Positions 2,289 to 16,969 of a stretch of DNA of 64,000 bases are shown here, piece by piece. The stretch is from Actinotalea sp. Marseille-Q4924 (GTDB lineage: Bacteria > Actinomycetota > Actinomycetes > Actinomycetales > Cellulomonadaceae), in NCBI RefSeq assembly GCF_916618755.1, contig NZ_CAKAKB010000002.1, positions 124,001 to 188,000 on the forward strand, written 5' to 3'. Position 1 is the stretch's first letter, and each line of letters begins with the position of its first letter. The notes under the pieces are model-generated. The model saw only the letters and a list, made by a program, of their open reading frames with translations. It was not told where the DNA came from and did no database searches. The position numbers and the translations under genes were made by a program.

Positions 2289-2316
2289 CTGTCAAGGATT
2301 CTGGATACATTATCGA
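2289..2316 (+). promoter_or_regulatory. Promoter with G[T/G]AT-N5-AT[A/C]C operator over the -10 box
   Basis: A -35-like CTGTCA (2289-2294) and a -10-like TATCGA (2311-2316) are separated by 16 bases. The 13-mer GGATACATTATCG (2303-2315) overlaps the -10; its core GATA-CAT-TATC is a perfect palindrome. The -10 begins at position 9 of the 13-mer, exactly as in the promoters at 10274 and 15274. This is the most divergent copy of the motif. It would control the MFS gene at 2341, about 25 bases downstream. Confidence 0.5.
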
Positions 2317-2340
2317 GACCAGCCTGAACAGGAGGTCGAG

Positions 2341-3618
2341 GTGGCGCCACGGACCGGTTCCGACGCGCAGGGTGACCCCGACGCGGGCCGCCCCCGGGGG
2401 GCGTGGCGGTTGCTGGGCAACCGTCGCTTCGCTGCGTACTGGCTCGGGGGCCTGGTCTCCGGACCGGGGACGTGGTTGCACAACGTCACCGCCTCCGTCC
2501 TCGTGCTCGAGCTGACGGGCTCGCCGTTCATGGTCGGCGTCGTCAACTTCGCGACCTTCATCCCGCTCCTCCTCTTCAGCCTGCCGGCCGGCGTGCTCGG
2601 CGACCGGGTGGACCGCCGTCTGGTCGTCGGCGTGGCCTGCACGGTCGCGGGGGCGACCGCCGGGACGCTCGCCTGGGTCGCCGCCGCCGAGCGACTCAGC
2701 GCGGGTCTGCTGATCGGGTTCTGCTTCCTCCTCGGCACGGCGCAGGCCGTCAACAAGCCGGCGCACGGCGCGCTGCTCCCCACACTGGTGAGCCGTGCCG
2801 AGCTGCCGCGGGCCACCGCGCTCAACGTCCTGCAGTTCCAGTTCGGACAGGTCGCCGGACCGGGGCTGGCGTCGCTGCTGCTGCTCGTCGGGACACCGGC
2901 GCAGGCATTCGCCCTCAACGCCGTCAGCTTCCTCGGTCCCGTGGTGTCGATGGCCTTCGTCGGCCCCCGGCGGCGGCGTGGAGGGAGCACGGACGCCGCG
3001 GCCCCGCCGACGGCGCGAGCGCCCGCTCGGGCGCCGTCGATCAGCGAGGGCCTGCGGGTCATCATGGACAGCCCCGTCATGCCGGCGATGGTCCTCGCCG
3101 TCGTCCTGACGAACGGCGCGGTCGAGGCGTTGCGCACGCTCGCACCCACGATCGCCGCCGGGAGAGCGCTGCCCGAGGCGGCGGGGGTGATCATCATGGG
3201 CTACAGCGTGGGCGCGCTCCTCGGCCTCGTCGGGTTCGGCACGGTGGAGCGCCGCCTGGCGCCGGCCTGGCTGCTCCCGACGGCCTTCGCCCTGCAGGTG
3301 GTGGGGCTCGTCGGTGTCGCGGCGGCGCCGTCGCTCGCCGCTACCGTCGTCGCGGCCGCCCCGATCGGGCTGGGCTTCGCCCTGAGCACGCCGCTCCTCA
3401 GTGCGGGGCTGCAGACGCTGGCGCGGGAGGACCATCGCAGTCGCGTCATGGCGGTCTTCTCCATGGCGCACCTCGGCATGCGCCCGTTCTTCGCGCTGGC
3501 CGCCGGCGGTCTGGCGACGGTCTCCGGGGCTCCGCCGACCCTGCTCGCCTTCGCGGTGCTCGCCCTGGCCGCCGCGGTCTACACGCGCCGTCGGCGGCTC
3601 CAGCGGCCGCCCGACTGA
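2341..3618 (+). CDS. MFS transporter, EntS/MFS_3-like
   Basis: A 425-residue carrier with about 12 membrane segments. The GTG at 2341 is chosen because AGGAGG lies 5 bases upstream (2330-2335) and upstream reading is shadow. The N-terminus (RRFAAYWLGGLVSGPGTWLHN) and the motif GVLGDRVDRR after helix 2 match the DUF894/EntS branch of the major facilitator superfamily, which includes siderophore and drug exporters. A hydrophilic Arg/Ala/Pro linker at ~residues 205-235 separates the two six-helix halves. It is transcribed from the operator-bearing promoter just upstream and is followed by the amidohydrolase gene, so it may move the island's substrate or product, which is inference. Confidence 0.85.
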   Translation: MAPRTGSDAQGDPDAGRPRGAWRLLGNRRFAAYWLGGLVSGPGTWLHNVTASVLVLELTGSPFMVGVVNFATFIPLLLFSLPAGVLGDRVDRRLVVGVACTVAGATAGTLAWVAAAERLSAGLLIGFCFLLGTAQAVNKPAHGALLPTLVSRAELPRATALNVLQFQFGQVAGPGLASLLLLVGTPAQAFALNAVSFLGPVVSMAFVGPRRRRGGSTDAAAPPTARAPARAPSISEGLRVIMDSPVMPAMVLAVVLTNGAVEALRTLAPTIAAGRALPEAAGVIIMGYSVGALLGLVGFGTVERRLAPAWLLPTAFALQVVGLVGVAAAPSLAATVVAAAPIGLGFALSTPLLSAGLQTLAREDHRSRVMAVFSMAHLGMRPFFALAAGGLATVSGAPPTLLAFAVLALAAAVYTRRRRLQRPPD

Positions 3619-3703
3619 CGTGGGCCTCCGCGGTCGCGGGCACCTGTGAGGTGGAGCCCGGCCATCACTCCGGCGTCCCCGTGGACAGGAGCGCTCGGGC
3701 CGG

Positions 3704-3732
3704 TTGCCGCTGGATACGAAATCCAGAATACT
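3704..3732 (+). promoter_or_regulatory. Promoter with overlapping operator palindromes
   Basis: TTGCCG (3704-3709) and AATACT (3727-3732) form a -35/-10 pair with a 17-base spacer. GGATACGAAATCC (3712-3724) is a G[T/G]AT-N5-AT[A/C]C palindrome in the spacer. A second, overlapping 13-mer (AAATCCAGAATAC, 3719-3731) places the -10 at its position 9, as in the other copies. This pair would drive the isochorismatase-like gene at 3786. Confidence 0.55.
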
Positions 3733-3785
3733 GCGAGCACACGACCGCCGCCGGCGATCACCTCCCGACGAAGCGAGGTCACGGC

Positions 3786-4514
3786 ATGCAGCAGCGCGTG
3801 TGGGACGCCTTCCTCACCGAGCAGGACAAGGCACACCTCGCGGCAGCAGGGACGAAGGGCACGTACGGCTTCGGCCGCAAGGCCGCGGTCCTCTCCGTCG
3901 ACAACTACCGCAAGGCCATCGGCGACGAGCCGCTGCCCCTCCTGGAGTCCGTCAGGACGTGGCCCGGCAGCACCGGCCTGGCGGGGTGGGAGGCGCTGGA
4001 ACGGACGCGACCCGTCCTCGCGGCAGCGCGGGCGAACGGGGTGCCCGTCATCCACGTGACCGCGCTCGACAAGGACGAGGCCGGGATGCCGGGCTGGGGC
4101 GCCCGCCTGGGCGGCCGGCACGACTCGCGGCCGCGGACGCCGGAGGAGCTGGACCGGCACCGCAGGCGACTGGACATCGTGGAGCAGGCGGCACCCGAGC
4201 CGGGTGAGGTGGTCCTGCGCAAGACGGGACCCAGCGCCTTCTTCGGCACGCCGTTGGCCGCCCACCTCATCGGGGAGGGGATCGACACCCTCATCGTCGT
4301 CGGCGAGAGCGTCAGCGGCTGCGTCCGCGCGACCGTCGTCGACGGCTGCAGCCTGCGCCTGCACATGATCGTGGTGGAGGACTGCGTCTACGACCGGCAC
4401 GAGGCGTCGCGTGCCATCAACCTCTTCGACATGGACCAGAAGTACGCCGACGTCCTCGACTCGGCCCACGTCATCGCCTGGCTCGAGGGCCCGCGCCCCG
4501 TCGCTCCGGACTGA
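3786..4514 (+). CDS. Isochorismatase-family cysteine hydrolase (N-carbamoylsarcosine/maleamate amidohydrolase-like)
   Basis: A 242-residue cytoplasmic hydrolase of the isochorismatase-like fold. The catalytic triad is visible: Asp39 (VLSVDNY), Lys146 (VVLRKTGPSAFFGT) and Cys179 (ESVSGCVRATVVD). Cys followed by VRATVVDG is the pattern of the amidase branch (N-carbamoylsarcosine, maleamate or nicotinamide-type amide hydrolysis) and not of true isochorismatases, which lack this Cys. The ATG at 3786 has GAGG upstream and follows its own promoter. Setting beside cupins and carboxylate transporters suggests it removes an amide nitrogen from a ring-cleavage or carbamoyl intermediate; the substrate is not determined. 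Confidence 0.85.
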   Translation: MQQRVWDAFLTEQDKAHLAAAGTKGTYGFGRKAAVLSVDNYRKAIGDEPLPLLESVRTWPGSTGLAGWEALERTRPVLAAARANGVPVIHVTALDKDEAGMPGWGARLGGRHDSRPRTPEELDRHRRRLDIVEQAAPEPGEVVLRKTGPSAFFGTPLAAHLIGEGIDTLIVVGESVSGCVRATVVDGCSLRLHMIVVEDCVYDRHEASRAINLFDMDQKYADVLDSAHVIAWLEGPRPVAPD

Positions 4515-4552
4515 GGCGGAGCCGGCCCCACACGCCGGGCCGCTTCCTTGAC

Positions 4553-4566
4553 GTGATGCAGATCAC
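4553..4566. promoter_or_regulatory. CRP/GlxR-like palindrome upstream of the ABC operon
   Basis: GTGATGCAGATCAC is a perfect inverted repeat (GTGA-N6-TCAC), the core of cAMP-receptor (CRP/GlxR) sites. It lies ~45 bases upstream of the expected start of transcription from the weak operator-bearing promoter at 4570-4598, a usual position for an activator. The rest of 4515-4830 (316 bases) holds a weak GC hairpin at 4523-4542 that could end the previous transcript and a ~230-base leader with no ORF I would support. Confidence 0.4.
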
Positions 4567-4569
4567 CCC

Positions 4570-4598
4570 TTACGTTCACGATCTGAATACGAAATACG
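4570..4598 (+). promoter_or_regulatory. Weak promoter with operator palindrome before the ABC operon
   Basis: GAATACGAAATAC (4585-4597) reads GTATTTCGTATTC on the other strand and is one mismatch from GTAT-N5-ATAC. By the spacing rule of the other sites the -10 would be AATACG (4593-4598) and the -35 TTACGT (4570-4575), both poor, which would fit a requirement for the CRP-like site at 4553. The operon starts at 4831, so the leader is about 225 bases. Confidence 0.4.
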
Positions 4599-4830
4599 GG
4601 ATGTGTTCGAAGGTTTCGACCGAGAGCGCATCTCACACGGTCTCCGCTGAGCCCGGGTCGAGTCCTGGCAGCGCACCGCGGCGCATCGCGCCGCCTCCCG
4701 GTCGACGACGACCGGTCACCCCGTTCAGCCCCGCTCGTCGGCCCGTCCGACGCGCATCAGCCCGACGGTTCCCCCGCGGTGTCAACGGCGACTCCGCACC
4801 TCGGGCACAGCACGAAGGAGCCCGCACCTC

Positions 4831-5988
4831 ATGTCCCTGCACCGCGACCGTCACCGCTCAGCGGTTCTCGCCGCCTCTGCCGGTGGTCTCCTGATCCTGG
4901 TCACCGCCTGCGCCTCGCCGACGGAGAGCACGCCGGACCCGGCCGCTGAGGGTGGGGGCGGAGGCGACGTCTGCGCCGAGAGCGCCGCCGTCGACCTGGC
5001 CGAGCGGGCCGGATCCCTCGAGGGGTCCGAGCGGGAGGACCTCCTGCTGGAGGAGGCGGTCGCCGCCCGCGACGGCGCCGTCGACTTCTACACCGAGATC
5101 AACGACCCGCAGGTCATCGTCGACGCCTTCGAGGAGAAGTACGGCGACCTGACGGTCAACGTGTACCGCGCCGGCAGCGAGCAGATCCGCCAGCGCGTGC
5201 TCGAGGAGTCCGACGCCCGCTTCTCCGGCGCTGACCTCATCGAGATGGACACGCTGGAGATGGCCATCCTCGACGAGAACGCGCTGCTCGCCCCGGCCGC
5301 CTCCCCGCTCGTGGAGGAGCTCTCGGAGGCGGCTCGGTTCGACAACTACATCGGTGACCGGCTCAGCTACATCGTCCCCGGCTGGAACACGAACGCCGTC
5401 TCCCCGGAGCAGGTGCCGCAGTCGCTGGAGGACTACGCCACGTTCGACGCGGGCAAGCTCGCGCTCGAGGGCAGCGACGTCTTCTGGTTCGCCGGGATGG
5501 TCATGCACATGGAGTCCGAGGGCAAGACCCGCGAGGAGGCCGTGCAGGTGTTCAAGGACCTGGCCGCGAACGCCGACATCACGTCGGGCCACACCACCAC
5601 CACCGAGCTCGTCGTGGCGGGGCAGTACGCCATCGCCCCCAACCACTACGTCCACCGCCTGCTCGAGCTGCAGGGCAAGGGCGCGCCGATCGCGTGGGAC
5701 CCGGTGAACATCCCGGTCGTCGCCGAGATCACGGCCACCTCGGTGCACTGCCTGTCGGACAACCCCGCCGCGGCCATGCTCCTGCAGGACTTCATCCTCA
5801 GCGCCGACGGCGGCCAGCAGATCTTCATCGACGAGGGCCGGACGCCGGCCAACGAGTCCATGGCCCAGGAGACGCTCGGAGGCGTCGACATCGACCCGCT
5901 GGTGGTCGACGTCGCGGACGTGGCGGACAACTACGCCGAGTGGGCGGAGCTGTGGGACGAGGTCGTCCGCGGCGGTAACGCGGCATGA
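4831..5988 (+). CDS. ABC transporter substrate-binding lipoprotein (FbpA/PotD-like)
   Basis: A 385-residue extracellular solute-binding protein. The N-terminus has Arg/His charges, a hydrophobic core and the lipobox LVTAC (Cys ~27), followed by a Ser/Thr/Pro/Gly linker, so it is lipid-anchored outside the membrane. The mature part follows the family-1 pattern of FbpA/PotD/AfuA: AVDFYTEIND near the start, DLIEMDTLEMAIL at the first crossover and a C-terminal region (QQIFIDEGRTPAN) as in iron(III) and phosphonate or polyamine binders. The ligand cannot be fixed from sequence. The permease start codon overlaps its stop (ATGA), so the three genes form an operon. Confidence 0.88.
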   Translation: MSLHRDRHRSAVLAASAGGLLILVTACASPTESTPDPAAEGGGGGDVCAESAAVDLAERAGSLEGSEREDLLLEEAVAARDGAVDFYTEINDPQVIVDAFEEKYGDLTVNVYRAGSEQIRQRVLEESDARFSGADLIEMDTLEMAILDENALLAPAASPLVEELSEAARFDNYIGDRLSYIVPGWNTNAVSPEQVPQSLEDYATFDAGKLALEGSDVFWFAGMVMHMESEGKTREEAVQVFKDLAANADITSGHTTTTELVVAGQYAIAPNHYVHRLLELQGKGAPIAWDPVNIPVVAEITATSVHCLSDNPAAAMLLQDFILSADGGQQIFIDEGRTPANESMAQETLGGVDIDPLVVDVADVADNYAEWAELWDEVVRGGNAA

Positions 5989-7727
5989 CGGCCCTGGTCA
6001 ACGCACCGAACGCCGTCGTCGGCGACGCGGCCGCCCCCGTGGCGCCGCGTCGCCGGCGGCCCACCGCCACCGGCGTCATCGGGGTCGTGGCCCTCGTGGT
6101 CGTCGGCTACCTGGTGCTGTCCCCGCTGTTCTACCTGGTCTGGCGGGGCCTGACGACAGGTGAGGGCTTCAGCTTCGCGAACATCGTCGCGGCGTACAGC
6201 GTCTCGGGCACGCCGGAGATGGTCGGGAACTCGTTCGTCTTCGCGTTCGGCTCCGCGGCGGTGAGCGTGATCAGCGGGACGGCGCTGGCCTTCTTCTGCA
6301 CCCGGACGAACGCGCCGCTCAAGCCGTTGCTCTACGCGGCGTCGATCGTGCCGCTGATCGTGCCCGGCATCCTGTTCACCATCTCGTGGGTGTTCCTGCT
6401 CAGCAAGGACATCGGCCTCATCAACGGTCTGCTGCGCCAGGTCGGGCTCGGCTTCCTGCAGGTCGACGCGTTCTCGCTGCTCGGCATGATCCTCATCGAC
6501 GGCATGCACCAGGCGCCGCTGGTCTTCCTGCTCATGTTCGCGGCGTTCCGCGCCACGGATCCCGCGCTCGAGGAGTCCTCCCTCATGAGCGGGGCCACCG
6601 TGCCGCAGACGCTGCGGCGGGTGACGATCCCGCTCGTCCGACCGGCGCTCTTCGGGGCCATCCTCATCAGCGTCGTGCGTGGGCTCGAGTCCTTCGAGAC
6701 GCCCGCGGTGCTGGGGATCCCCGCGGACGTCTGGGTGTTCACGTCCCGGATCTTCCACGCGCTGGGCAGCTATCCCGTGCGATACGACATCGCGTCGATC
6801 TACTCCATCACACTGCTGATCCTGACCGTGGCGGGCCTGCTGTTCGTGCAGCGAGTCAACCGTCGTGGCGAGCGCTTCGCGACCATCTCGGGCAAGGGCT
6901 TCCGGCCCCGGCCGATGGACCTGGGCGCGTGGCGCTGGCCGGTGTCGATCCTCTTCGCCCTGTACTTCCTCACGGTCGTGGTGCTGCCGCTGGCGATGCT
7001 GGTGTGGATGTCGCTCCTGCCGTACTACCAGCAGCCGACGAGCGCCGCCGCGTGGGGCACGGTCAGCCTCGACAACTACGCCCGCATCCTGACGATGCCC
7101 GGCATCGTGCAGTCCATCCAGAACTCGAGCCTGCTCGCGGTGGGCAGCGCGACGGCGGTCATGCTGCTCATGAGCGTCGTGGCGTGGCTCTCCCTGAAGT
7201 CCGGGTTCCGGGGGCGCCGGTACTTCGACACGCTCGCGAGCGTGCCGCTCGCCGTCCCCGGGCTGGTGCTCGGCGTGGCCCTGATCTTCATCTACCTGCG
7301 CTCGCCCCTGCCGATCTACGGGACGCTGTTCATCCTGTTCATCGCCTACGTGACCCGGTACATGCCCTTCGGCATGCGGTACGCGAGCGCCTCCCTGACG
7401 CAGATCAGCTCCGAGCTCGAGGACTCGGCGCACATGTCCGGCGCCACCTGGTTCGACACGTTCCGCCGGGTCGTGATCCCGCTGATGATGCCCGGGATCG
7501 TCGCGGGCTGGGTCTACGTGATGATCGTGTCCATCCGCGAGCTGTCGAGCTCGATCCTTCTCTACTCCCACGGCTCCCGGGTCCTCTCGGTGTCCATCTG
7601 GGAGCTGTGGGAGAACGGCGAGACCGGGGTGCTGGCGGCGCTCGGCGTCGTCATGGTCGTCGCTCTCATGATCCTCGTCGCCATCGCCTACAAGGTCGGC
7701 GCGCGCATCGGCGTGCGCGACACCTGA
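5985..7727 (+). CDS. ABC transporter permease, fused two-domain (FbpB-like)
   Basis: A 580-residue membrane protein with about 12 segments, equal to two tandem binding-protein-dependent permease domains. Each half carries its EAA loop that docks the ATPase: EESSLMSGATVPQTLRRV at ~196 and EDSAHMSGATWFDTFRRV at ~479, both followed by IPL. Double-length permeases of this kind belong to FbpB/AfuB-type importers (iron(III), thiamine, phosphonate and related ligands). It overlaps the binding-protein gene by 4 bases and is followed 16 bases later by the ATPase. Confidence 0.9.
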   Translation: MTALVNAPNAVVGDAAAPVAPRRRRPTATGVIGVVALVVVGYLVLSPLFYLVWRGLTTGEGFSFANIVAAYSVSGTPEMVGNSFVFAFGSAAVSVISGTALAFFCTRTNAPLKPLLYAASIVPLIVPGILFTISWVFLLSKDIGLINGLLRQVGLGFLQVDAFSLLGMILIDGMHQAPLVFLLMFAAFRATDPALEESSLMSGATVPQTLRRVTIPLVRPALFGAILISVVRGLESFETPAVLGIPADVWVFTSRIFHALGSYPVRYDIASIYSITLLILTVAGLLFVQRVNRRGERFATISGKGFRPRPMDLGAWRWPVSILFALYFLTVVVLPLAMLVWMSLLPYYQQPTSAAAWGTVSLDNYARILTMPGIVQSIQNSSLLAVGSATAVMLLMSVVAWLSLKSGFRGRRYFDTLASVPLAVPGLVLGVALIFIYLRSPLPIYGTLFILFIAYVTRYMPFGMRYASASLTQISSELEDSAHMSGATWFDTFRRVVIPLMMPGIVAGWVYVMIVSIRELSSSILLYSHGSRVLSVSIWELWENGETGVLAALGVVMVVALMILVAIAYKVGARIGVRDT

Positions 7728-7743
7728 CAGAAGGAGCCCACGC

Positions 7744-8871
7744 ATGCTGCGTGTCGAGAACCTCGCCAAGGCCTTCCACGACGAGTCGCGGTCGGGGCGC
7801 GTCTTCGCCGTGGACCACATCGACCTCCAGGTCGACGAGGGGGAGTTCTTCACCCTCCTGGGCCCGTCGGGCTGCGGCAAGACCACCACCCTGCGGTGCA
7901 TCGCCGGGCTGGAGAGCCCCGACGCGGGCGAGATCGTCGTCGACGACCGCGTCATGTACTCCGGGACCCGCAAGGTCGCCGTGCCGGCGAACGACCGCAA
8001 CCTCGGCATGGTGTTCCAGAGCTACGCGATCTGGCCGCACATGAACGTGTTCGACAACGTGGCGTTCCCGCTGCGAGTGGGCAAGCGACGCAGGACGTCG
8101 AAGGCGGAGGTCACCGAGCGCGTCGAGCGAGCACTGGCGGTCGTCGAGCTCGACCAGCTCGCGGGTCGGTTCGCGACGAAGCTCTCGGGTGGCCAGCAGC
8201 AGCGGCTCGCGCTCGCACGTGCCCTGGTCATCGAGCCGGCGCTGCTGCTGCTCGACGAGCCGCTGTCGAACCTCGACGCGAAGCTGCGCGAGTCGCTCCG
8301 CTTCGAGCTCAAGCGCCTCCAGCGCGAGCAGGGCATCACGACCGTCTACGTGACGCACGACCAGTCCGAGGCGCTGTCGATGTCGAACAAGGTCGCCGTC
8401 ATGCACGACGGCAAGGTCAGCCAGGTCGGGGACCCGTTCGAGATCTACCTGCACCCGGCCAACGCGTTCGTCGCGGACTTCGTCGGCACCACCAACTTCA
8501 TCGAGGGTGTCGTCGAGCACCGCGACGGGGAGGCCTGGCGGGTCCGCACGCCCGACGGCCACGTGATGGTGGGCAAGGTGGTGGACACGGAGCCCGGGGA
8601 CCGCTGCATGGTCAGCATCCGGCCCGAGCACATCGAGGTCAGCCCCGGGGCCGGGATCGGTCTGAACACCTTCGCGGGCGAGATCCGGACCCGGCTCTTC
8701 ACCGGTGAGGCGATGATGTACCAGGTGCAGCTCGGCTCGGCGCAGCTCAGCTGCCGGACCCCCGCGGCGCTGCGCTACCCGTCGGGCACGCCGGTCAGCG
8801 TCCACCTGCCGACGCGGCACGCGATCGCGCTGCCGTGGACCCAGGACCGCGCCATGGCTGCGGCCTCATGA
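7744..8871 (+). CDS. ABC transporter ATP-binding protein (FbpC/PotA-like)
   Basis: A 375-residue ATPase. Walker A is GPSGCGKTT at ~40, the signature LSGGQQQRLALARAL at ~149, Walker B LLLLDEPLSNLD and the switch VYVTHD. After ~240 residues comes a TOBE-like regulatory domain, typical of FbpC/PotA/MalK ATPases that energise family-1 importers. AAGGAG lies 9 bases before the ATG. It completes the importer with the two preceding genes. No frameshift or missing motif is seen. Confidence 0.92.
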   Translation: MLRVENLAKAFHDESRSGRVFAVDHIDLQVDEGEFFTLLGPSGCGKTTTLRCIAGLESPDAGEIVVDDRVMYSGTRKVAVPANDRNLGMVFQSYAIWPHMNVFDNVAFPLRVGKRRRTSKAEVTERVERALAVVELDQLAGRFATKLSGGQQQRLALARALVIEPALLLLDEPLSNLDAKLRESLRFELKRLQREQGITTVYVTHDQSEALSMSNKVAVMHDGKVSQVGDPFEIYLHPANAFVADFVGTTNFIEGVVEHRDGEAWRVRTPDGHVMVGKVVDTEPGDRCMVSIRPEHIEVSPGAGIGLNTFAGEIRTRLFTGEAMMYQVQLGSAQLSCRTPAALRYPSGTPVSVHLPTRHAIALPWTQDRAMAAAS

Positions 8872-8944
8872 GGTCTGTGCCCCAGCACTGACCCAGCAGC
8901 GCGTCGTCGTGCGCTGTCCGCTCCAGGCAGGTGAGGAGGTGAGG

Positions 8945-10219
8945 GTGAGCGTCCGGAACCGGCTCACAGCCCTGCGCACGCGGATGTTCCGCTCGTTCTC
9001 GCAGCGCAACTACCGCACCTACTTCGCCGGGCACAGCGTCTCCGTCGCGGGGACGTGGATGCAGCGGATCGGTCAGGACTGGCTGCTCCTGGAGCTGACC
9101 GGGAGCCCGCTCGTGCTGGGGATCTCCCTGTTCTGCCAGTTCCTGCCGGTGCTCCTGCTCAGCGCCTGGGGCGGGGTCCTCGTCGACCGGACCGACACGC
9201 GGCGGCTCCTCATGGTCACGCAGGCCCTGCAGGCCGCGCTCGCGGCGACGCTCGCCGTGGTGACGCTCACCGGGGTCGTCACGGTGATGTGGGTCTACGT
9301 GCTCGCCGTCGGCCTCGGCGTGGTGAGCGCGGTGGACGTCCCCGCTCGCCAGACGTTCGTCTCGGAGCTCGTCGACGACGCGGACATCGTCAACGCCCAG
9401 GCCCTGACGGGCGTCATGCACAACCTCGGCCGCCTCCTCGGCCCCGCCGTGGCCGGCGTCCTCATCCTCCTCGTCGGCGTCGGCGTGACCTTCGTCGTCA
9501 ACGCCGTCTCGTTCGTGGCGGTGCTCGTGAGCCTCACCGCGATCGACGTCGGGCGGCTCCACGCCGTGCCGGTCCAGCCGCGCGGGCGCGGCCAGCTGCG
9601 CGAGGGGGTCTCCTACGTGTGGCGGACGCCGGAGCTCCGGGCGACGCTGCTCATCGTCGCGATCGTCTCCTTGCTCGGGCAGAACTTCCGCGTGGTGTTC
9701 CCCGTGCTGGCGTCGGAGACGTTCGACGGCGACGCCGGTACGTACGGCGTCATCACCTCCGCGCTCGGCATCGGCGCGGTCCTCGGGTCGTTCGCCAGCG
9801 CGGCCGCCACCCGTGCCGACTCGTGGCGGTTCCTGTGGACGTGCGTCGGCTTCGGTGCGGCCAACCTCCTCGTCGCGGTCAGCCCGACGCTCGGGATGGC
9901 GCTCGTCGCCGTCGCGCTGCTCGGCGTCACCAACCTCATGCTCAACGTGCTGGGTCGGGCCATCCTCCTGGTGAACACGGTCCCGCAGATGCGCGGACGT
10001 GTGATCGCCCTCCACTCGACGGTGTTCCTCGGCGCGACACCGTTCGGCGGCGTGGCGGTCGGTGCGCTGGTGGAGGTCGGCGGCGCCCGATCGGGGCTGG
10101 TTCTCGCCGCGGTCTCCGCGGTCGTCGTGGCGGCGGCCGCGTTCCCGGCCCTGCGGCGGGTCCGTGCCGCGCGGGAGGAGGCGCCGCGAGCGGTGGCGGC
10201 TGGAGAGACGCCGGCATGA
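8945..10219 (+). CDS. MFS transporter, EntS/MFS_3-like
   Basis: A 424-residue carrier with about 12 membrane segments. GTG 8945 is favoured because GGAGGT sits 4 bases upstream; an in-frame GTG at 8939 overlaps that ribosome site. The start (RSFSQRNYRTYFAGHSVSVAGTWMQ), the loop GVLVDRTDTRRLL and DVPARQTFVSELV are classic for the DUF894/EntS-like MFS branch. It is similar in type to the carrier at 2341 but not a recent duplicate. The substrate is unknown; it lies between the ABC importer and the second cupin, so it may belong to the same regulon. Confidence 0.87.
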   Translation: MSVRNRLTALRTRMFRSFSQRNYRTYFAGHSVSVAGTWMQRIGQDWLLLELTGSPLVLGISLFCQFLPVLLLSAWGGVLVDRTDTRRLLMVTQALQAALAATLAVVTLTGVVTVMWVYVLAVGLGVVSAVDVPARQTFVSELVDDADIVNAQALTGVMHNLGRLLGPAVAGVLILLVGVGVTFVVNAVSFVAVLVSLTAIDVGRLHAVPVQPRGRGQLREGVSYVWRTPELRATLLIVAIVSLLGQNFRVVFPVLASETFDGDAGTYGVITSALGIGAVLGSFASAAATRADSWRFLWTCVGFGAANLLVAVSPTLGMALVAVALLGVTNLMLNVLGRAILLVNTVPQMRGRVIALHSTVFLGATPFGGVAVGALVEVGGARSGLVLAAVSAVVVAAAAFPALRRVRAAREEAPRAVAAGETPA

Positions 10220-10228
10220 CCTTCGCAG

Positions 10229-10254
10229 CCCAGGCGTGAACCAAACGGCCTGGG
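10229..10254. terminator. Weak hairpin, possible terminator
   Basis: CCCAGGC and GCCTGGG form a 7-bp stem with a 12-base loop 10 bases after the MFS stop and just upstream of the next promoter. There is no T-run. Confidence 0.3.
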
Positions 10255-10273
10255 TCCTCAGGCTCCGGAGACC

Positions 10274-10301
10274 TTGACCCGTAGATTGTATTCAGTATCA
10301 T
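10274..10301 (+). promoter_or_regulatory. Strong promoter with G[T/G]AT-N5-AT[A/C]C operator over the -10 box
   Basis: TTGACC (10274-10279), a 16-base spacer and TATCAT (10296-10301) form a good vegetative promoter. GTATTCAGTATCA (10288-10300) overlaps the -10. The arrangement is base-for-base parallel to the promoter at 15274. The cupin ATG at 10390 lies ~80 bases downstream; an in-frame ATG at 10306 falls at the predicted transcription start and is unlikely to be used. Confidence 0.65.
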
Positions 10302-10389
10302 CAACATGTTGGTAAGCACGCGACCCCGTCGGCGTCGAGGGCGACGCCACGCCTCGTCGGGCGCGGCCGAGTGGAAAGAGGACCAACCC

Positions 10390-10926
10390 ATGACAGACCT
10401 GACCCCCGTTGTGAAGGGCGCACCGGACATCTCCGAGGTCGAGAAGCGGGACCAGCCGCTGAGCACGGCCTACAACAGCGAGATGGGCCCGCGCGAGTCC
10501 TGGAACAAGAAGAACCCGCCGACCGAGGCGGTCATCATCAAGAACCTCAAGACGACGGAGCTCACGCCCCGCGAGTACCGCAACACGAAGGCGCGCTTCT
10601 ACCGCCTCGGCCACGACGTCCGCCTGCAGCCGCACCTGAGCGAGCTGCCCCCGCTGGGCGCCTCGGTCAACCACCGCCACACCACCGAGGCGGTCATCTA
10701 CATCGTCTCCGGCGTCGGGCACTCCGTCATCAGCTGGGACGGCGAGAACGAGCACCGGATCGACTGGGAAGAGGGCGACATGTTCAGCTTCCCGGTCTGG
10801 ATGTGGCACCAGCACTTCAACGACAGCGAGACGGAGTCCTGCCGCTACCTGGCCATCCAGGACACCTTCGCGATCAAGGCGCTCGGACTGCACGCGATCG
10901 AGCGGTTCCCCGAGAACAAGGCCTGA
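10390..10926 (+). CDS. Cupin-domain protein, relative of the 1498-2133 cupin
   Basis: A 178-residue single-domain cupin. The ATG at 10390 has AAAGAGG 7 bases upstream and follows a clear promoter. Motif 1 is NHRHTTEAVIYIVSG and motif 2 GDMFSFPVWMWHQHFN, supplying His, His, Glu and His for a metal. A Trp-rich second motif and EAVIYIVSGVGHS show kinship to the first cupin, but the His-rich tail is absent. Such proteins are often annotated as gentisate-dioxygenase-like; a single small cupin could equally be an isomerase or a binding subunit. It is probably co-transcribed with tctC 42 bases later, linking it to carboxylate uptake. Confidence 0.87.
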   Translation: MTDLTPVVKGAPDISEVEKRDQPLSTAYNSEMGPRESWNKKNPPTEAVIIKNLKTTELTPREYRNTKARFYRLGHDVRLQPHLSELPPLGASVNHRHTTEAVIYIVSGVGHSVISWDGENEHRIDWEEGDMFSFPVWMWHQHFNDSETESCRYLAIQDTFAIKALGLHAIERFPENKA

Positions 10927-10968
10927 CACCCACCCACTGGTCCGCACTGCGATCGAAGCGAGGACGGC

Positions 10969-12054
10969 ATGCGTACACACAACACCAGGCGGCGAGCCCT
11001 CATGGGCGTCACCGCTGCTGCAGCGGCGATGACGCTCGCGGCATGCACATCCGGTGACGGGGGCGGACTGGGGGACGAGCCGGAGGAGACTGCGGCAGGG
11101 GGCGGTGAGACTGCGGCGCCCACGGAGGAGGCCGACGCCTGCGCCGCCCTCGACGGCGAGACGGTCACCATGGTCGTGCCGTACAACCCCGGCGGAGGCT
11201 TCGACACGTTCGTCCGGACCCTTGAGCCGCACCTCGAGGAGCAGCTTGAGGGCGTCCAGGTGAACGTCGAGAACCGGCCCGGTGGCGGCGGGCTCGTCGG
11301 AGCCAACTCGGTGTTCCAGAGCAGCCCGGACGACCTGACGATCGGGCTGATCAACTACCCGGGTGCGGTGTTCGCCGAGATCACCGAGCAGGAGGGTGCG
11401 ACCTTCGACAACTCCGAGTGGACCGTCCTCGGACGGCTGGCGGCCCTGCCGCCTCTCGTATACACGGGGGCTGACACCGGGCTGACCGACTTCGAATCCA
11501 TCCTCTCGGCCGAGGAGCCGGTCACGTTCGGCATCGGCGGCGTCGGCTCCGACGCCTACTACGTCGCCGTCGTGCTCTCGGAGGTCTTCGGCTTCCCGAA
11601 CGAGATCATCGGTGGGTACCCCGGTAGCTCCGAGGCCGACGCGGCGCTCATCGTCGGCGAGGTCGACGCGTCGATCAACTCCGGTGCCGTCGCGGTGCAG
11701 ACGGTGGAGAACTCCGGCGCCAACCCCGTCGTCGCTGTGAGCACCGAGCCTCTCGCCGAGCTTCCAGACGTGCCCCTGATCACCGACTTCGACTCGGACC
11801 AGCCGGACGTCCTCTCGGCGCTCGCCTCCATGTCGGACCTCGAGCGCATCGTCGTCGGCCCGCCCGGCATGGACGAGGGGGTCACGGAGTGCCTCGCCGG
11901 CGCGATCTACGCGGCCGCGACGGAGACCTCTTACGGCGAGGAGATGGAGGCCGCCGGGTCCCCGGCGGACCCGCTGCCGCGCGAGGAGACCGTGCAGCTG
12001 CTCGAGGAGGTCACCGGCTCCCTGGACGCGCTGCGCGAGCTGCTCCAGAGCTGA
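10969..12054 (+). CDS. tctC: Tripartite tricarboxylate transporter substrate-binding protein
   Basis: A 361-residue secreted lipoprotein. A twin-arginine-like start (TRRRALMG), a hydrophobic core and the lipobox LAAC at ~26 are followed by an acidic Gly/Glu linker. The mature part has the TctC/Bug hallmarks: VTMVVPYNPGGGFDT, VENRPGGGGLVGAN and FGIGGVGSDAYY. The family captures di/tricarboxylates and other organic acids for the TctAB membrane pair, found here at 15419-17517. The gene order is split: a GMC oxidoreductase and an aldehyde dehydrogenase lie between tctC and tctA, suggesting these enzymes act on the imported compound. A terminator follows at 12063. Confidence 0.92.
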   Translation: MRTHNTRRRALMGVTAAAAAMTLAACTSGDGGGLGDEPEETAAGGGETAAPTEEADACAALDGETVTMVVPYNPGGGFDTFVRTLEPHLEEQLEGVQVNVENRPGGGGLVGANSVFQSSPDDLTIGLINYPGAVFAEITEQEGATFDNSEWTVLGRLAALPPLVYTGADTGLTDFESILSAEEPVTFGIGGVGSDAYYVAVVLSEVFGFPNEIIGGYPGSSEADAALIVGEVDASINSGAVAVQTVENSGANPVVAVSTEPLAELPDVPLITDFDSDQPDVLSALASMSDLERIVVGPPGMDEGVTECLAGAIYAAATETSYGEEMEAAGSPADPLPREETVQLLEEVTGSLDALRELLQS

Positions 12055-12062
12055 GGGCCCAC

Positions 12063-12102
12063 CGAGGGGTGCGGGGGTCGAACGCGACCCTCGCACCCCT
12101 CG
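12063..12102. terminator. Rho-independent-type hairpin after tctC
   Basis: An 18-bp stem (one G-T wobble) with loop AACG, 8 bases after the tctC stop. There is no strong T-run, as is usual in actinobacteria. Confidence 0.7.
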
Positions 12103-12163
12103 TCGCGCCGGGTGATGGCGTCCCGGGGCGTGCAGCAGGTGTCCGTACGGAAGGAGGAGGACG

Positions 12164-13672
12164 GTGCACCAGTCGTACGACGTGATCGTCGTGGGCGGAG
12201 GGTCGGCGGGGTGCGCCGCTGCGGCGCGCCTCTCACAGGACGCTGGCTGTCGTGTCCTCCTCCTGGAGGCGGGTCCGGACCCGTCGCCGCTGCCCGACGT
12301 GGTCGCCCTGACGTCGATGCAGCACCAGCTGCACGAGTCGCCGTACGTGCTGCACTACCCGACGCCGCGACCGGACGGCAGCGAGATGTCGTCCCTCTCG
12401 GGCCGGATCATGGGTGGCGGCTCGTCGGTCAACCAGGCGTCCGTGGTGCGACCCCCGCGTGCGGACATGGACCTCTGGGCCGCGCTCGGCAACGATGCGT
12501 GGTCGTACGACGCCGTCCTCCCGGTCATGCGGCGCATCGAGGCGGACCAGGACTACCCGGACAGCCCCTTCCACGGTGCGGACGGGCCGCTGTACGTCAA
12601 GCGGCCATGGACGCTCGACATGCCGGCATCGGAGCCGCTCGCGGCCCTCGTCGAGCGTGCCCTCGGCATGGGGCTGCCGGCGTGCCCGGACATCAACGGC
12701 CCCGAGCCGCTGGGTGTGTGCCCGTCCCCCTATTCGATCAAGGAAGGCCAGCGGCAGTCGAGCACGGTCGCCTACCTCGACCCGGCCCGTGGGCGGGCCA
12801 ACCTGACCGTTGTCGCGGAGGCGCCCGTGCACCGCCTCACGCTCGAGGGCGGTCGCGTCACAGGGGTCGTCCACGCGAAGAACGGCCGCGAGCACGTGGT
12901 CGCCGGCGACCGCGTCGTCCTGTGTGCCGGTGTCTTCCACTCGCCGCAGATCCTGCAGCTCTCGGGCGTCGGGCCCGAGGCCGAGCTGCGGCGGATCGGG
13001 ATCCCGACCGCCCACGCCCTGGAGGGCGTGGGCGGGAACTACCAGGACCACCCCGTGGTCCAGATGACCTTCGCCGGGGGGTTGTCACGGCAGCCGTTCG
13101 ACTGGATGGCGACCCGGCTGAAGCTCCTCGTCAAGAGTGATCCCGGACTCGCGGCGGGCGACCTTCACCTCATGCTCGGGCCGCCGCAGCCGGGGCCGGA
13201 CGGGGCGCCGCTCGTCTCCATGACCGTGCGTCTGCTGCAGCAGCGCAACCGTGGTCGCGTCCGGCTCGCCTCGGACGACCCGAGGGCCCTGCCCCACGTG
13301 GATGCGCGGTTGCTGCTGGACCCCGGTGACGTGGCGGCGGTGCGGGCAGGTATGGGCTTCGTGCACGAGCTGACGCAGCACCCCAGCCTGGCCCCCTTCG
13401 TGGGAGCGCCGGTCGAGCCGACGTCACCGGTGGCGTGGACGCAGCACGCCGTCGGCACGTACGACACCTACCACCACGGGGTCGGCACCTGCATGATGGG
13501 CCAGGGCTCCGACCCCCTGGCCGTCGTCGACCAGCACCTCCGGGTCCACGGGATCGAGAACCTCTGGGTCGGTGACGCGTCGATCATGCCCACCATCACC
13601 CGCGCCAGCACGAACTTCACCGCGGTGATCATCGGGGAGCGAGTGGCCGAGTTCGTCGAGGCCGCCGCATGA
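12164..13672 (+). CDS. GMC-family FAD-dependent oxidoreductase (alcohol/choline dehydrogenase-like)
   Basis: A 502-residue flavoprotein. The GTG at 12164 follows AAGGAGGAGG. The ADP-binding fold is at the N-terminus (DVIVVGGGSAGCAAAARL, with LLLEAG at ~35), the second GMC signature occurs at FHSPQILQLSGVGP (~260), and the C-terminus has YHHGVGTCMMG and NLWVGDASIMP plus TRASTNFTA, supplying the active-site His/Asn pair. GMC enzymes oxidise alcohols to aldehydes. Here the next gene is an aldehyde dehydrogenase, so the pair probably converts an alcohol group to a carboxylate. The substrate is not evident. Confidence 0.9.
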   Translation: MHQSYDVIVVGGGSAGCAAAARLSQDAGCRVLLLEAGPDPSPLPDVVALTSMQHQLHESPYVLHYPTPRPDGSEMSSLSGRIMGGGSSVNQASVVRPPRADMDLWAALGNDAWSYDAVLPVMRRIEADQDYPDSPFHGADGPLYVKRPWTLDMPASEPLAALVERALGMGLPACPDINGPEPLGVCPSPYSIKEGQRQSSTVAYLDPARGRANLTVVAEAPVHRLTLEGGRVTGVVHAKNGREHVVAGDRVVLCAGVFHSPQILQLSGVGPEAELRRIGIPTAHALEGVGGNYQDHPVVQMTFAGGLSRQPFDWMATRLKLLVKSDPGLAAGDLHLMLGPPQPGPDGAPLVSMTVRLLQQRNRGRVRLASDDPRALPHVDARLLLDPGDVAAVRAGMGFVHELTQHPSLAPFVGAPVEPTSPVAWTQHAVGTYDTYHHGVGTCMMGQGSDPLAVVDQHLRVHGIENLWVGDASIMPTITRASTNFTAVIIGERVAEFVEAAA

Positions 13673-13775
13673 TCTCGCGACGTTGCCGGCGTGCCGGCCG
13701 CGGCAAACCACGCGGGTGGACGGCCCGAACGCACCGAAGGCGACGAAGGCGACAGGGAGAAGGGATGGTGGAGTG

Positions 13776-15239
13776 ATGCTGGTGCCGTCCGAGGTGATCG
13801 GCAGGCTTGCCGACGCCCGCATGCTCATCGGAGGAGAGTGGCGGTCGAGCAGCAGTGGGGCGGTGCTCCCGAGCGTCGACCCTTCGACCGAGAAGGAGAT
13901 CGCGCGGATCCCCGACGCGACGGACGCCGATGTCGACGACGCGGTCCACGCCGCCCACGACGCGCTCGCCGCGTGGCGGGCGATGTCGCCGTCCCAGCGT
14001 GGTGATCGTGTCCGGCGGCTCGCCGACGTGCTCGAGCGACACGAGGACGAGCTGGCGATGATCGACTCCGTCGACTCGGGCAACCCGTTGACCGCCATGC
14101 GCGACGACGTGCGAGGTGGTGTCCGCGAGCTGCGGCTCTTCGCCGGTCTCGTCTCCGAGATCAAGGGCTCATCGGTGCTGGACGGAGCGGACCGGTTCTC
14201 GTACGAGCTCCGTGAGCCGTACGGCGTGGTCGGTCGGATCGTGGCGTTCAACCACCCTCTGAAGTTCGCAGCAGGGAAGACGGCCGCGGCTCTCGTGGCG
14301 GGGAACACCGTCGTCGTCAAGCCGTCGGAGCACACCTCGCTGTCGGCGATCCGCCTCGGCCAGCTCGCCGAGGGCATCCTGCCGCCGGGCGTGTTCAACG
14401 TGGTGACGGGGCGCGGCCCTGGAGCCGGTGCGGCGATCGCCGCCCACCCGGCAGTCCCGCGGGTCGCCTTCACCGGGGGCGTGCCGGCCGGGCGGGCCGT
14501 CCTGCGCGCCGGTGCCGAGACCATCAAGCACGTGACGCTGGAGCTCGGCGGGAAGAACCCGATGATCGTCTTCCCGGACGCCGACCCGAGGCGGGCGGCT
14601 GCGGCGGCGGTCAAGGGCATGAACTTCGCGCGCTCGCAGGGTCAGTCGTGCCAGTCCAACTCACGGGTGTTCGTACACAGGGACATCAGCGCCGCGTTCA
14701 CGGCGGAGGTCGTGGCCCTCGTTGAGCGGTTCACCGTCGGTGACCCTCTCGAGCCGGGGACGGACCTTGGCCCCCTCACCTACCGGGAGCACTACGAGAG
14801 GGTCATGGGTTACGTCGACGTGGGCCGCCGGGAAGGGGCGACGCTCCTCGCCGGCGGCGAGCGGGTGGCCCGTCCGGGCTTCTTCGTCCCGCCCACGGTC
14901 TTCGGCGACGTGGACCCGGGCATGACGATCGCACGGGAGGAGATCTTCGGGCCCGTCCTGTCACTCATCACATGGGACGACGAGGAGGCCGTGGTCGCCC
15001 AGGCGAACGACACCTCCTTCGGTCTCACGGCCAACATCTGGACCGGGGACCTCGTGAACGCCCACAGAACCGCTCATCGCATCCAGGCGGGGTATGTGTG
15101 GATCAACGGGTCCGGCCGCCGTGTACCCGGCACGCCGTTCGGTGGGTACAAGCAGAGCGGGCTCGGCAAGGAGAGCAGCCTCGAGGAGATCCTCTCCTAC
15201 TGCCAGCACAAGGTCATCGCCGTGAGTCTTCAGGACTGA
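13776..15239 (+). CDS. Aldehyde dehydrogenase (NAD(P)-dependent)
   Basis: A 487-residue enzyme of the ALDH superfamily, full length. Conserved elements are the cofactor region (VGRIVAFNHPL with the oxyanion Asn, VVKPSEHTS), the general base ELGGKNPMIVF (~258), catalytic Cys in SQGQSCQSN (~291), and EEIFGPVLS near 390. ATG 13776 is chosen; GTG 13773 immediately before is also possible. It follows the GMC oxidoreductase by ~100 bases and precedes the tctAB promoter. Role: oxidation of the aldehyde released by the GMC enzyme, by inference from adjacency. Confidence 0.9.
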   Translation: MLVPSEVIGRLADARMLIGGEWRSSSSGAVLPSVDPSTEKEIARIPDATDADVDDAVHAAHDALAAWRAMSPSQRGDRVRRLADVLERHEDELAMIDSVDSGNPLTAMRDDVRGGVRELRLFAGLVSEIKGSSVLDGADRFSYELREPYGVVGRIVAFNHPLKFAAGKTAAALVAGNTVVVKPSEHTSLSAIRLGQLAEGILPPGVFNVVTGRGPGAGAAIAAHPAVPRVAFTGGVPAGRAVLRAGAETIKHVTLELGGKNPMIVFPDADPRRAAAAAVKGMNFARSQGQSCQSNSRVFVHRDISAAFTAEVVALVERFTVGDPLEPGTDLGPLTYREHYERVMGYVDVGRREGATLLAGGERVARPGFFVPPTVFGDVDPGMTIAREEIFGPVLSLITWDDEEAVVAQANDTSFGLTANIWTGDLVNAHRTAHRIQAGYVWINGSGRRVPGTPFGGYKQSGLGKESSLEEILSYCQHKVIAVSLQD

Positions 15240-15273
15240 GGCCGGAGGATCGGACCGCAAGCCCCGCGAGCCG

Positions 15274-15301
15274 TTGACCAGCAAAGTGTATTTAGTATAC
15301 T
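15274..15301 (+). promoter_or_regulatory. Strong promoter with near-perfect operator palindrome, tctAB
   Basis: TTGACC (15274-15279), a 16-base spacer and TATACT (15296-15301) make a near-consensus promoter. GTATTTAGTATAC (15288-15300) is GTAT-N5-ATAC and covers most of the -10, so a bound protein would block RNA polymerase. Layout and several flanking bases match the promoter at 10274. Confidence 0.72.
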
Positions 15302-15418: not shown

Positions 15419-16969
15419 ATGGGTCAGTCGGTTCTCGACGGGTTGCTGCTGCTGCTGCAGCCGGTGTCGCTGCTGTACCTCACCGTGGGCATGGCCATCG
15501 GTCTGGTCATCGGCTTCCTGCCCGGCCTGGGGGGTCTGGCCACCCTGGCCCTCCTCACGCCACTGATCATCGGCATGGACCCGGCCCAGGGCCTCGCGTT
15601 CATCCTCGGCGCGTACGGTGCCGTGTCCTTCGGTGGTTCGATCACCGCGATCCTGTTCGGCGTCCCCGGTACCGGGGAGCAGGTCGTGACGACCTTCGAC
15701 GGCTACCCCATGGCCCGCCAGGGTCGCGCCGGCCGGGCGCTCGGCGTCTCGGCGGCCGCGAGCGCCTTCGGCGGGCTGTTCGGCGTCGTCGTCCTCATCC
15801 TCGCCATCCCCATCGCCCTGCAGCTCATGACCTACATCCGGTCGCCCGAGGTCTTCATGCTCGGGATCCTCGGCATCCTCGTCATCGGGATCAGCGACGC
15901 GGACACGCGGCTCAAGGGCGTCATATCCGGCGTGCTGGGCCTCATGCTCTCGTTCATCGGCCTGGACCCGATCACCGGCATCAGCCGGATGACGTTCGGC
16001 AACCTCGAACTCATGGACGGCCTGAGCATCACCGCGATCACCATGGGCCTGTTCGCGGTCTCCGAGATGTACGCGATCTACACCCGAGGCGTCGCCATCG
16101 CGGGGAACGCACCCGCCTCCCGGTCGAAGGAGAGGGGTTCCCGGGTCGTCGACGGCGTCATGGACGGGGTGCGCAACTGGCGGACCGTGCTGCAGAGCGG
16201 CTCGATCGGCGCGGTCTCCGGGGTCGTCCCCGGCGTCGGGGGGACCCTCGGCATGTTCGGCGCCTACGCCCTGGCGAAGCGGTCCTCGAAGGACCCGGAG
16301 TCCTTCGGCAAGGGCAACCCCGTCGGCGTCCTGGCCCCCGAGGCGGCCAACAACGCGAAGGAGGGAGGCTCGTTCGTCCCGACGCTGTCCTTCGGCATCC
16401 CGGGGTCCTCCGGCATGGCCCTCGTGATCGTGATCCTGCTGATCCTGGGATTCGTACCGGGCCCTGACATGATCAACAACCACCTGGACATCGTGTTCCT
16501 CATCGCCTGGGTCATGGCCCTGAGCAACATCCTCTGCAGCGTCATGGGCCTCGCGCTCGCCCCTACCCTCGCGAAGCTCGCGTTCGTGCGTCCCCAGCTG
16601 CTGGCGCCGGCCCTCATCGCGATCGCCCTCCTGGGCAGCTTCATCGACTCCCGGATGCCCCTGGGCATCGTCGTCGCACTGATCTTCGGCGTCGTCGGCT
16701 ATATCTTCAAGGCGACCGGCTACTCCGCGGCCGGTGTGACCCTCGGGTTCGTCCTCGGGCCGCTCATCGACCAGAACCTCGGTCTCTCGCTGCAGGTCTT
16801 CGGGCCGTCGTTCCTGCTGCGCCCGATCCCGATCGTCCTCATCGTCCTCGTCGTCCTCGTGGCCGTCTGGCCGAAGGTCAAGGACGCCGTCCGCCGCCGC
16901 CGCAGCGGGTCGACCTCCGGTGGCGCCGGGACCGACAGGCCCAGCGTGAGCCGGGAGGTGACGCGATGA
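15419..16969 (+). CDS. tctA: Tripartite tricarboxylate transporter large membrane subunit
   Basis: A 516-residue membrane protein with about 12 segments. The family signature is clear: GFLPGLGGLATLALLTPL near residue 40, then GAYGAVSFGGSITAILFGVPG and GYPMARQGRAGRALG. A second Gly-rich copy occurs at GVVPGVGGTLGMFGAYALA (~260), as expected for TctA. GGAG lies 7 bases before ATG 15419. It overlaps tctB by 4 bases (ATGA). Together with TctC (10969) it forms a secondary, proton/sodium-driven carboxylate importer. Confidence 0.93.
   Translation: MGQSVLDGLLLLLQPVSLLYLTVGMAIGLVIGFLPGLGGLATLALLTPLIIGMDPAQGLAFILGAYGAVSFGGSITAILFGVPGTGEQVVTTFDGYPMARQGRAGRALGVSAAASAFGGLFGVVVLILAIPIALQLMTYIRSPEVFMLGILGILVIGISDADTRLKGVISGVLGLMLSFIGLDPITGISRMTFGNLELMDGLSITAITMGLFAVSEMYAIYTRGVAIAGNAPASRSKERGSRVVDGVMDGVRNWRTVLQSGSIGAVSGVVPGVGGTLGMFGAYALAKRSSKDPESFGKGNPVGVLAPEAANNAKEGGSFVPTLSFGIPGSSGMALVIVILLILGFVPGPDMINNHLDIVFLIAWVMALSNILCSVMGLALAPTLAKLAFVRPQLLAPALIAIALLGSFIDSRMPLGIVVALIFGVVGYIFKATGYSAAGVTLGFVLGPLIDQNLGLSLQVFGPSFLLRPIPIVLIVLVVLVAVWPKVKDAVRRRRSGSTSGGAGTDRPSVSREVTR

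Follow-up and report, generated by a model that had tools for sequence, protein, structure and literature searches.

A heptad-phased operator shared by fifteen sites of a catabolic island in Actinotalea sp. Marseille-Q4924, and an FCD-type GntR protein as its candidate regulator

The stretch of Actinotalea sp. Marseille-Q4924 DNA studied here (64,000 nucleotides, C2:124001-188000 of a 3,643,543-base genome; hereafter the window) carries in its left part genes for cupins, transporters, an isochorismatase-family hydrolase and oxidoreductases, followed by genes of cofactor F420 metabolism. A preliminary description of this DNA reported a 13-bp palindrome at seven places, among them at least five promoters, and attributed it to one repressor encoded outside the window. 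We show below that the palindrome belongs to a shared operator with 7-bp phasing, which is concentrated in a catabolic island and conserved in other genomes, and we propose a candidate regulator.

A palindrome-like 13-mer is present at all seven places, although the registers of two of them had to be corrected. At the first place the best copy is GGATTCTGGATAC at 2296-2308, which replaces 2303-2315. This array lies between the cupin gene CupA and the MFS gene. At the second place two 13-mers overlap, 3712-3724 and 3719-3731, of which the latter is the stronger. The bit scores given for individual sites of the window were calculated, unless stated otherwise, with a held-out matrix of the eight sites left of the window; two of these eight were first found with a matrix that had window sites in it. 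The places at 22417 and 23083, which had been listed as candidates, match the other sites in quality, and the latter is an identical copy of the site at C2:123361. Promoter-like sequences accompany several sites. The motif TTGACC-N16-TAT is present at 10274 and 15274, as reported, and the operators there overlie TTGACC-N16-TATCAT (array 10281..10300) and TTGACC-N16-TATACT (site 15288..15300). At the array 3712..3731 the promoter scan gave TTGCCG (3704)-N17-AATACT. Coordinates are collected in Table 1.

Table 1. Operator sites and genes (positions are those of the window unless preceded by C2)
Feature	Position	Strand	Score or basis
Sites left of the window	C2:91038, 100152, 102086, 107255, 114752, 116093, 123185, 123361
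Sites in the window	C2:126296, 127719, 128585, 134288, 139288, 146417, 147083 (window 2296, 3719, 4585, 10288, 15288, 22417, 23083)
Operator array, heptads GGATTCT GGATACA TTATCGA	2296..2315		18.3 + 12.3 bits
Operator array (3712-3724, 3719-3731) upstream of isochorismatase-family gene	3712..3731		11.6 + 17.4 bits
Operator site upstream of ABC importer operon	4585..4597		14.6 bits
Operator array upstream of cupin/TctC/GMC/aldehyde dehydrogenase genes	10281..10300		14.0 + 14.4 bits
Operator site GTATTTAGTATAC upstream of TctA	15288..15300		21.7 bits
Operator site upstream of F420-0 ABC transporter substrate-binding protein gene (-)	22417..22429		16.1 bits
Operator site GTATCCAAGATAC, 33 bp ahead of FbiA/CofD start codon	23083..23095		21.3 bits
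Cupin with His-rich N-terminus (CupA)	1501..2133	-	Pfam Cupin_2 59.6 bits
MFS transporter	2341..3618	+	Pfam MFS_3
Isochorismatase-family hydrolase	3786..4514	+	Pfam PF00857 94.3 bits
ABC importer: substrate-binding protein, fused permease, ATPase	4831..8871	+	Pfam on substrate-binding protein
Cupin (CupB)	10390..10926	+	Pfam Cupin_2
TctC receptor, tripartite tricarboxylate carrier	10969..12054	+	Pfam PF03401
GMC oxidoreductase	12164..13672	+	Pfam GMC_oxred_N/C
Aldehyde dehydrogenase	13683..15239	+	Pfam Aldedh 504.7 bits
TctA and TctB, carrier membrane parts	15419..17517	+	Reading of translation, position beside TctC
F420-0 ABC transporter substrate-binding protein	21224..22294	-	TIGR03868 465.6 bits (cut-off 392.4)
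FbiA/CofD, F420 biosynthesis	23129..24100	+	Pfam CofD 167.4 bits; GTG start read from sequence

The operator is an array of NNAT heptads repeated every 7 bp, in which two adjacent heptads form the palindrome GTATCC-W-GGATAC. The symmetrised matrix reads G-T/G-A-T-C/A/T-C-A/T-G-G/T/A-A-T-A/C-C. Both AT pairs are invariant in all 15 sites of the island, partly because most sites were found with patterns requiring AT. The phasing extends beyond the palindrome: of 30 flank views of the island sites, 6 have a third AT in 7-bp phase, vs 0-3 at other offsets (13 to 39). The same holds for 16 foreign cores, picked solely by a score of at least 15 bits in seven loci or regions, with a phased third AT in 10 of 32 flank views vs 0-5 at the other offsets examined (the second copy of a site in a 127-base overlap of contigs C67 and C208, described below, was removed). 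Clear triple arrays are GTATCCA GAATCCA TGATCCA (locus L089) and GTATCCT GGATATT GTATTCA (L071). The AT centre of the phased third heptad lies about 10.5 nt from the centre of the palindrome, within the 7-12 nt given for additional half-sites of the FadR family in the accessible part of PMC4494728. The GKATMCA heptads can be read as direct repeats or, paired, as a palindrome, and the sequences alone leave the symmetry of a bound protein undecided.

The exact word GTATNNNNNATAC (GTAT-N5-ATAC) occurs at four places in the genome, all of them between C2:91038 and C2:147095. This span of 56,058 bp, 1.54% of the genome, starts 33 kb to the left of the window. It also includes 10 of the 21 places that match GTATN5ATAC with at most one mismatch and 11 of the 29 places that match RKATNNNNNATMY (RKATN5ATMY). 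The binomial tails are 5.6e-8, 2.2e-13 and 3.1e-13, respectively, for a span picked from the matches themselves. When the places were distributed randomly and any interval of the span's length was accepted, 4/4 was reached in 2 of 200,000 trials and 10/21 and 11/29 in none. Places outside the span (11 near-exact ones and 18 of RKATN5ATMY) were not taken as members of the regulon.

A scan of the window with the held-out matrix gave 11 matches of at least 11 bits at the seven places (phased neighbours counted), and one more at 45811. Positions 1-24000 hold eight matches of at least 13 bits vs a mean of 0.27 in dinucleotide shuffles (at most 2 in 60 shuffles), and the maximum in 12 control stretches of 20 kb from the same genome (240 kb in total) is 10.9 bits. 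With a six-seed matrix, made from left-hand plain-pattern places only, the seven places score 13.4-21.9 bits and the controls at most 11.5. Controls, shuffles and random placement rule out chance or AT-richness as the source of the 13-mers. The expected excess over random positions of the genome is thus evident, since the controls contain nothing as strong and all exact places fall into the span. Two weaker matches in the window were discarded. The 13-mer GTGTCCTGGATCC at 45811-45823 (12.4 bits; 12.8 bits with the six-seed matrix) is single, unphased and far from the cluster, and probably arose by chance; the match at 38883 (9.6 bits) was dropped on the same grounds of being single, unphased and far from the cluster.

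Fifteen sites or arrays in the span, eight left of the window and seven inside it, were counted as promoters, so the set is larger than described earlier. Twelve of them are intergenic by longest-open-reading-frame gene calls; these rough calls place about 7% of the span between genes. The other three (C2:91038, 114752 and 147083) fall in 5' extensions of the genes for FGD, XdhC and FbiA, for which later starts fit the family matches better. The F420-reducing dehydrogenase FGD (TIGR03554, 483.2 bits, cut-off 420) is among the putative targets, with C2:91038 upstream of its likely start. The suspected inclusion of F420 genes in the set is supported: there are sites at the genes for FbiA and the F420-0 importer, and an array stands beside an F420-0 importer gene in another genome (G200, see below). 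A MobA-like gene lies just ahead of the XdhC site, MoaA is divergent to FGD, and MoeA is nearby; that these three genes respond to the regulator is a guess about operons. NCBIfam assigned no family to the TctA/TctB region (15419..17517).

The preliminary description suggested looking for an FCD/GntR gene left of the window. Such a gene, C2:106399-107115, lies in the span 17 kb to the left of the window and is flanked by genes of a molybdenum hydroxylase and an F420-type oxidoreductase. Its product of 238 amino acids has an N-terminal GntR winged helix-turn-helix (PF00392, 57.0 bits, cut-off 27) and a C-terminal FCD domain (PF07729, 55.6 bits, cut-off 24.3). Among solved structures it has 12 general GntR relatives (best E 3e-19). 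It is the one transcription-factor protein detected among the frames scanned: a Pfam scan of 40 other open reading frames of the island and window, in which the ECF ATPase, a FecCD-type permease and some other frames of the island were not included, gave no DNA-binding domain of a transcription factor. The residue that we take to be the first metal-ligand His of the FCD domain is apparently Tyr in all 12 aligned proteins (L027:2399-3115, L041, L070, L083-L091), and this FCD subfamily may do without the usual use of the metal site. Upstream regions of 12 FCD genes are enriched in the half-site by rank (Fisher p = 2.9e-6 with the Actinotalea gene and 6.1e-6 without it): nine genes are in the top 9% of windows and three are not enriched. 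At homologous regulator genes we found a weak 13-mer (L041), half-sites (L070 and L083) and an 18.7-bit site (L089); the regulators of loci L083-L091 are 35-41% identical. Since the FCD gene is in the island and the half-site precedes most of the homologous regulator genes examined, the FCD protein is the likely binder. Together with co-occurrence of gene and sites in four other genomes (G896, G898, G1166 and G200), the half-site ranks strongly suggest that it binds the operator.

The operator is found upstream of orthologues in other families and very probably in another order, in agreement with the conservation anticipated for a functional element. A scan of 84,980 species with exact short peptide patterns of the regulator found a single close relative, 58% identical, in a Sphaerisporangium metagenome-assembled genome (MAG; G896). 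The genomes sampled from its order include none of those sampled from the order of Actinotalea, and we therefore take its order to be another one. One contig of the MAG combines genes for an isochorismatase, a cupin, an ABC importer, CoxG, CoxM and the regulator, and includes orthologues of the hydrolase (71% identical), the amidohydrolase (71%), the luciferase-like enzyme LLM3 (80%) and CoxL (77%); the ABC importer orthologues of this island are 54-71% identical. Sites of 16-19 bits precede the isochorismatase, cupin and hydrolase genes, and a site of 17 bits precedes another luciferase-like gene. Contigs C67 (end of L071) and C208 (start of L092) of the MAG overlap by exactly 127 bases, hence they probably adjoin and form an island of about 60 kb with two FCD paralogues. 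C67 encodes amidohydrolase 3 (51%), an aldehyde dehydrogenase (53%), ABC proteins (39-51%), the second FCD protein (36%) and an MFS protein (43%) with a triple array directly before its start. Locus L062, a part of the second island contig, was left out of the controls for this MAG.

At E <= 1e-30 an FCD protein was detected in 10 of 297 genomes of the order of the MAG, the MAG included, which provided nine new loci. In G898 the CupA orthologue (75% identical) lies beside an FCD regulator gene and has an upstream site of 14.9 bits, and the CupB orthologue (84%) has one of 16.4 bits. In G1166 sites precede the hydrolase gene and its FCD gene. A search of 386 genomes of the phylum with the luciferase-like protein (E <= 1e-110) returned only the Actinotalea genome and G200, which belongs to another family of the same order. 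G200 has an F420 ligase gene before the FCD gene (35%), an array after it and an FGD-like gene (57%) near. A three-site array (12.9, 16.3 and 18.9 bits) lies there between an F420-0 importer gene (67%) and the hydrolase operon (78%), and two more arrays (best 19.1 and 13.0 bits) lie between two further divergent genes, one of which encodes a dehydrogenase. Thus three of the four arrays of G200 peak at 16-19 bits and one at 13; five 20-kb control stretches of this genome contain one match of at least 10 bits (13.6 bits).

The genes of L027:12208-15581 form a trio of an alpha/beta-hydrolase, an amidohydrolase and a luciferase-like protein, with orthologues in G896, G1123, G1145, G1166 and G200. 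The three genes stay together; the hydrolase and luciferase-like genes are 67-80% identical, and the trio lies beside an FCD gene or at most about 8 kb from one. It is a compact, unnamed catabolic module.

The island is rare. CupB orthologues were searched in 150 genomes of the family and regulator orthologues in 396 genomes of the order (E <= 1e-40) and 396 of the phylum (E <= 1e-35); each search returned the Actinotalea genome only. Of the four-kb bins, 9 of the 14 inside the span and none of the 22 outside it have a G+C content of at most 0.72. The rarity and the lower G+C content suggest that the island was acquired by lateral transfer. A plasmid search gave 49 records, all below 60% identity and mostly from Rhizobium, Agrobacterium and Sinorhizobium.

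We consider it probable that the palindrome is the operator of one local regulon, bound by the FCD-type GntR protein of the island, which would repress its targets until a ligand releases it. Several observations weigh against this proposal. The -10 box had been said to start at position 9 of the 13-mer in each island copy. A mechanical search found it there in 3 of 15 sites (3719, 10288 and 15288); for the remaining 12 the best -10-like hexamer is elsewhere, poor, or was not found, and the fixed overlap is rejected as a rule. The promoter of the FCD gene itself has only a half-site, with a best 13-mer of 7.6 bits, and its scores are equalled by 13 (13-mer) and 12 (half-site) of 194 other windows. 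In L084-L087 the 13-mer is weak or lies inside coding sequence. A variant palindrome, TTGGAT-N3-ATCCAA, occurs in these four loci with at most one mismatch and at most 140 bp before the matched start of the FCD gene, but it was read off the same upstream regions before being counted. L086 and L091 also contain it with two mismatches at places other than the FCD gene, and 560 kb of controls contain one such copy. In three of nine loci (L088, L090 and L091) neither the 13-mer nor the variant is present at the regulator gene. Matches of 15.3 and 17.1 bits (L085 8808 and L086 8112) were not counted, because they are FCD coding sequence for the helix-turn-helix peptide GVSRIP. In the whole MAG GTATN5ATAC with at most one mismatch is not enriched (228 places vs 216 for the reversed pattern); a stricter pattern gave 72 vs 15, with a reversed control that differs in composition. 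Finally, in the operator GTATCCWGGATAC GT and AC are 9 nt apart, so it fails the FadR-subfamily consensus GTM-N0-1-KAC with its distance of 2-3 nt, as given in the accessible part of PMC4494728. The earlier statement that GTAT...ATAC is an established GntR operator does not agree with this consensus.

Some of these facts would fit other explanations. The FCD protein could bind the sites as an activator, or activate some promoters and repress others: several sites are away from recognisable core promoters and just three cover a -10 box at the named place, so occlusion is not obvious everywhere. We regard this as unlikely, because FCD regulators are mostly repressors and the site overlaps the -10 box at the best-defined promoters (-35 at 10274, 15274 and 3704). 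It is very improbable that the 13-mers are merely AT-rich -10 regions of island promoters which are palindromic by chance. Three of them do coincide with good -10 boxes, and with 71-76% G+C in the control stretches AT-rich words mark promoters. However, the 240 kb of control DNA, with promoters of its own, contains no comparable word, and the 7-bp phasing, the conservation in other genomes and the 12 sites off the fixed -10 place all speak against it. After the held-out and control scans this explanation would need a sigma factor specific to the island.

Another regulator encoded elsewhere, e.g., of the IclR or TetR family or a second FCD protein, might bind the array, with the island FCD protein controlling only its neighbours. 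The array is indeed not a canonical FadR-subfamily operator (PMC4494728, accessible part). The predicted binding sites of IclR regulators have three boxes, and NpdR, an IclR-family protein, is listed for the use of trinitrophenol (picrate), a pathway with F420-dependent reductases (accessible parts of PMC8222616 and PMC8498797). The genome also has seven FCD genes, i.e., six besides that of the island. Nevertheless, the FCD gene accompanies the sites in the four other genomes and the half-site stands upstream of most homologous FCD genes examined; no IclR or TetR domain appeared in the 40 scanned frames, which are not all frames of the region; and the nearby FCD gene at C2:80176 is about 10 kb beyond the site-bearing span. 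We find a regulator of this kind quite unlikely.

Returning to repression by the FCD protein of the island, the following mechanism can be outlined. The single repressor proposed earlier now has a candidate gene outside the window, whose binding and repressive action we infer. The 238-residue protein would bind NNAT heptads at 7-bp spacing; two neighbouring heptads would make up the 13-bp palindrome, and three or four heptads may be used at some promoters. Without a substrate or intermediate of the pathway the protein would sit on or beside core promoters and repress them. A ligand would release it, leading to co-induction of uptake, catabolic enzymes and cofactor supply. The supply of F420 would be served by FGD, FbiA and the F420-0 importer, and that of molybdenum cofactor, less surely, by XdhC, MoaA and the MobA-like gene. 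The ligand and the extents of the operons are likewise putative.

From the enzyme classes we guess that the pathway hydroxylates, reduces and hydrolytically opens an N-heterocycle, because the island encodes a molybdenum hydroxylase and isochorismatase-type amidases as well as F420-type reductases and an amidohydrolase resembling dihydroorotase and hydantoinase (no NCBIfam score for it reaches the cut-off). Such a pathway would resemble anaerobic nicotinate breakdown. Two adjacent proteins of the window, encoded at 724-1392 (-) and 1501-2133 (-), have very His-rich stretches, and one of them is a cupin. Directly left of the window is an uptake system of the cobalt/nickel type, CbiM/CbiQ, which has a site to itself. 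The His-rich pair and the nearby uptake system suggest a metal-dependent cupin step.

The proposed system can be compared with known ones, as far as the accessible parts of the cited works describe them. With FadR/FCD regulators it shares the GntR winged helix-turn-helix and FCD domains, palindromic AT-rich intergenic sites and additional half-sites; it differs in that AT is the most conserved element and the period is 7 bp, besides the wider GT-AC distance (PMC4494728). NanR, an exception within the FadR subfamily, has a direct-repeat operator, TGGTATAW. The protein class and the tandem short repeats with a TAT core are similar, though the resemblance is loose: here the period is 7 bp, adjacent heptads also form an inverted repeat, and the targets are unrelated (PMC4494728). 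For a pathway that involves F420-dependent reductases, the closest known regulator is NpdR, which serves the use of 2,4,6-trinitrophenol in Rhodococcus opacus (PMC8222616). In both cases one regulator governs a catabolic pathway using such reductases (PMC8222616, PMC8498797), but NpdR belongs to another protein family and has the operator GTTCMRYATMRTGAWS (PMC8222616), and the pathway genes here include a molybdenum hydroxylase, a dihydroorotase-like amidohydrolase and isochorismatases.

Our literature search found no regulator that controls the transcription of F420 biosynthesis or uptake genes. In the 228,000-character text of an F420 review the terms regulon, repressor and transcriptional regulator occur 0 times. 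A search on how F420 biosynthesis is regulated found no paper. At the level of titles and listings, searches joining GntR with F420 returned only unrelated work, and nothing listed matched the pathway or an operator of this kind.

It is possible, and here we are tentative, that a dedicated FCD-GntR switch acting through a 7-bp heptad array co-induces FbiA, F420-0 import, FGD and molybdenum-cofactor genes together with a mobile pathway. In it an N-heterocycle would be hydroxylated by a molybdenum hydroxylase, reduced by an F420H2-dependent reductase and opened by a dihydroorotase-like amidohydrolase, and the route would be the aerobic equivalent of reductive nicotinate degradation in anaerobes. 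If this is true, deletion and transcriptomics could test F420 demand, since the regulator would be named, the operator defined and the list of targets short; the ligand would hint at the substrate of the pathway. The heptad array is also a concrete case of how FCD proteins may use extra half-sites.

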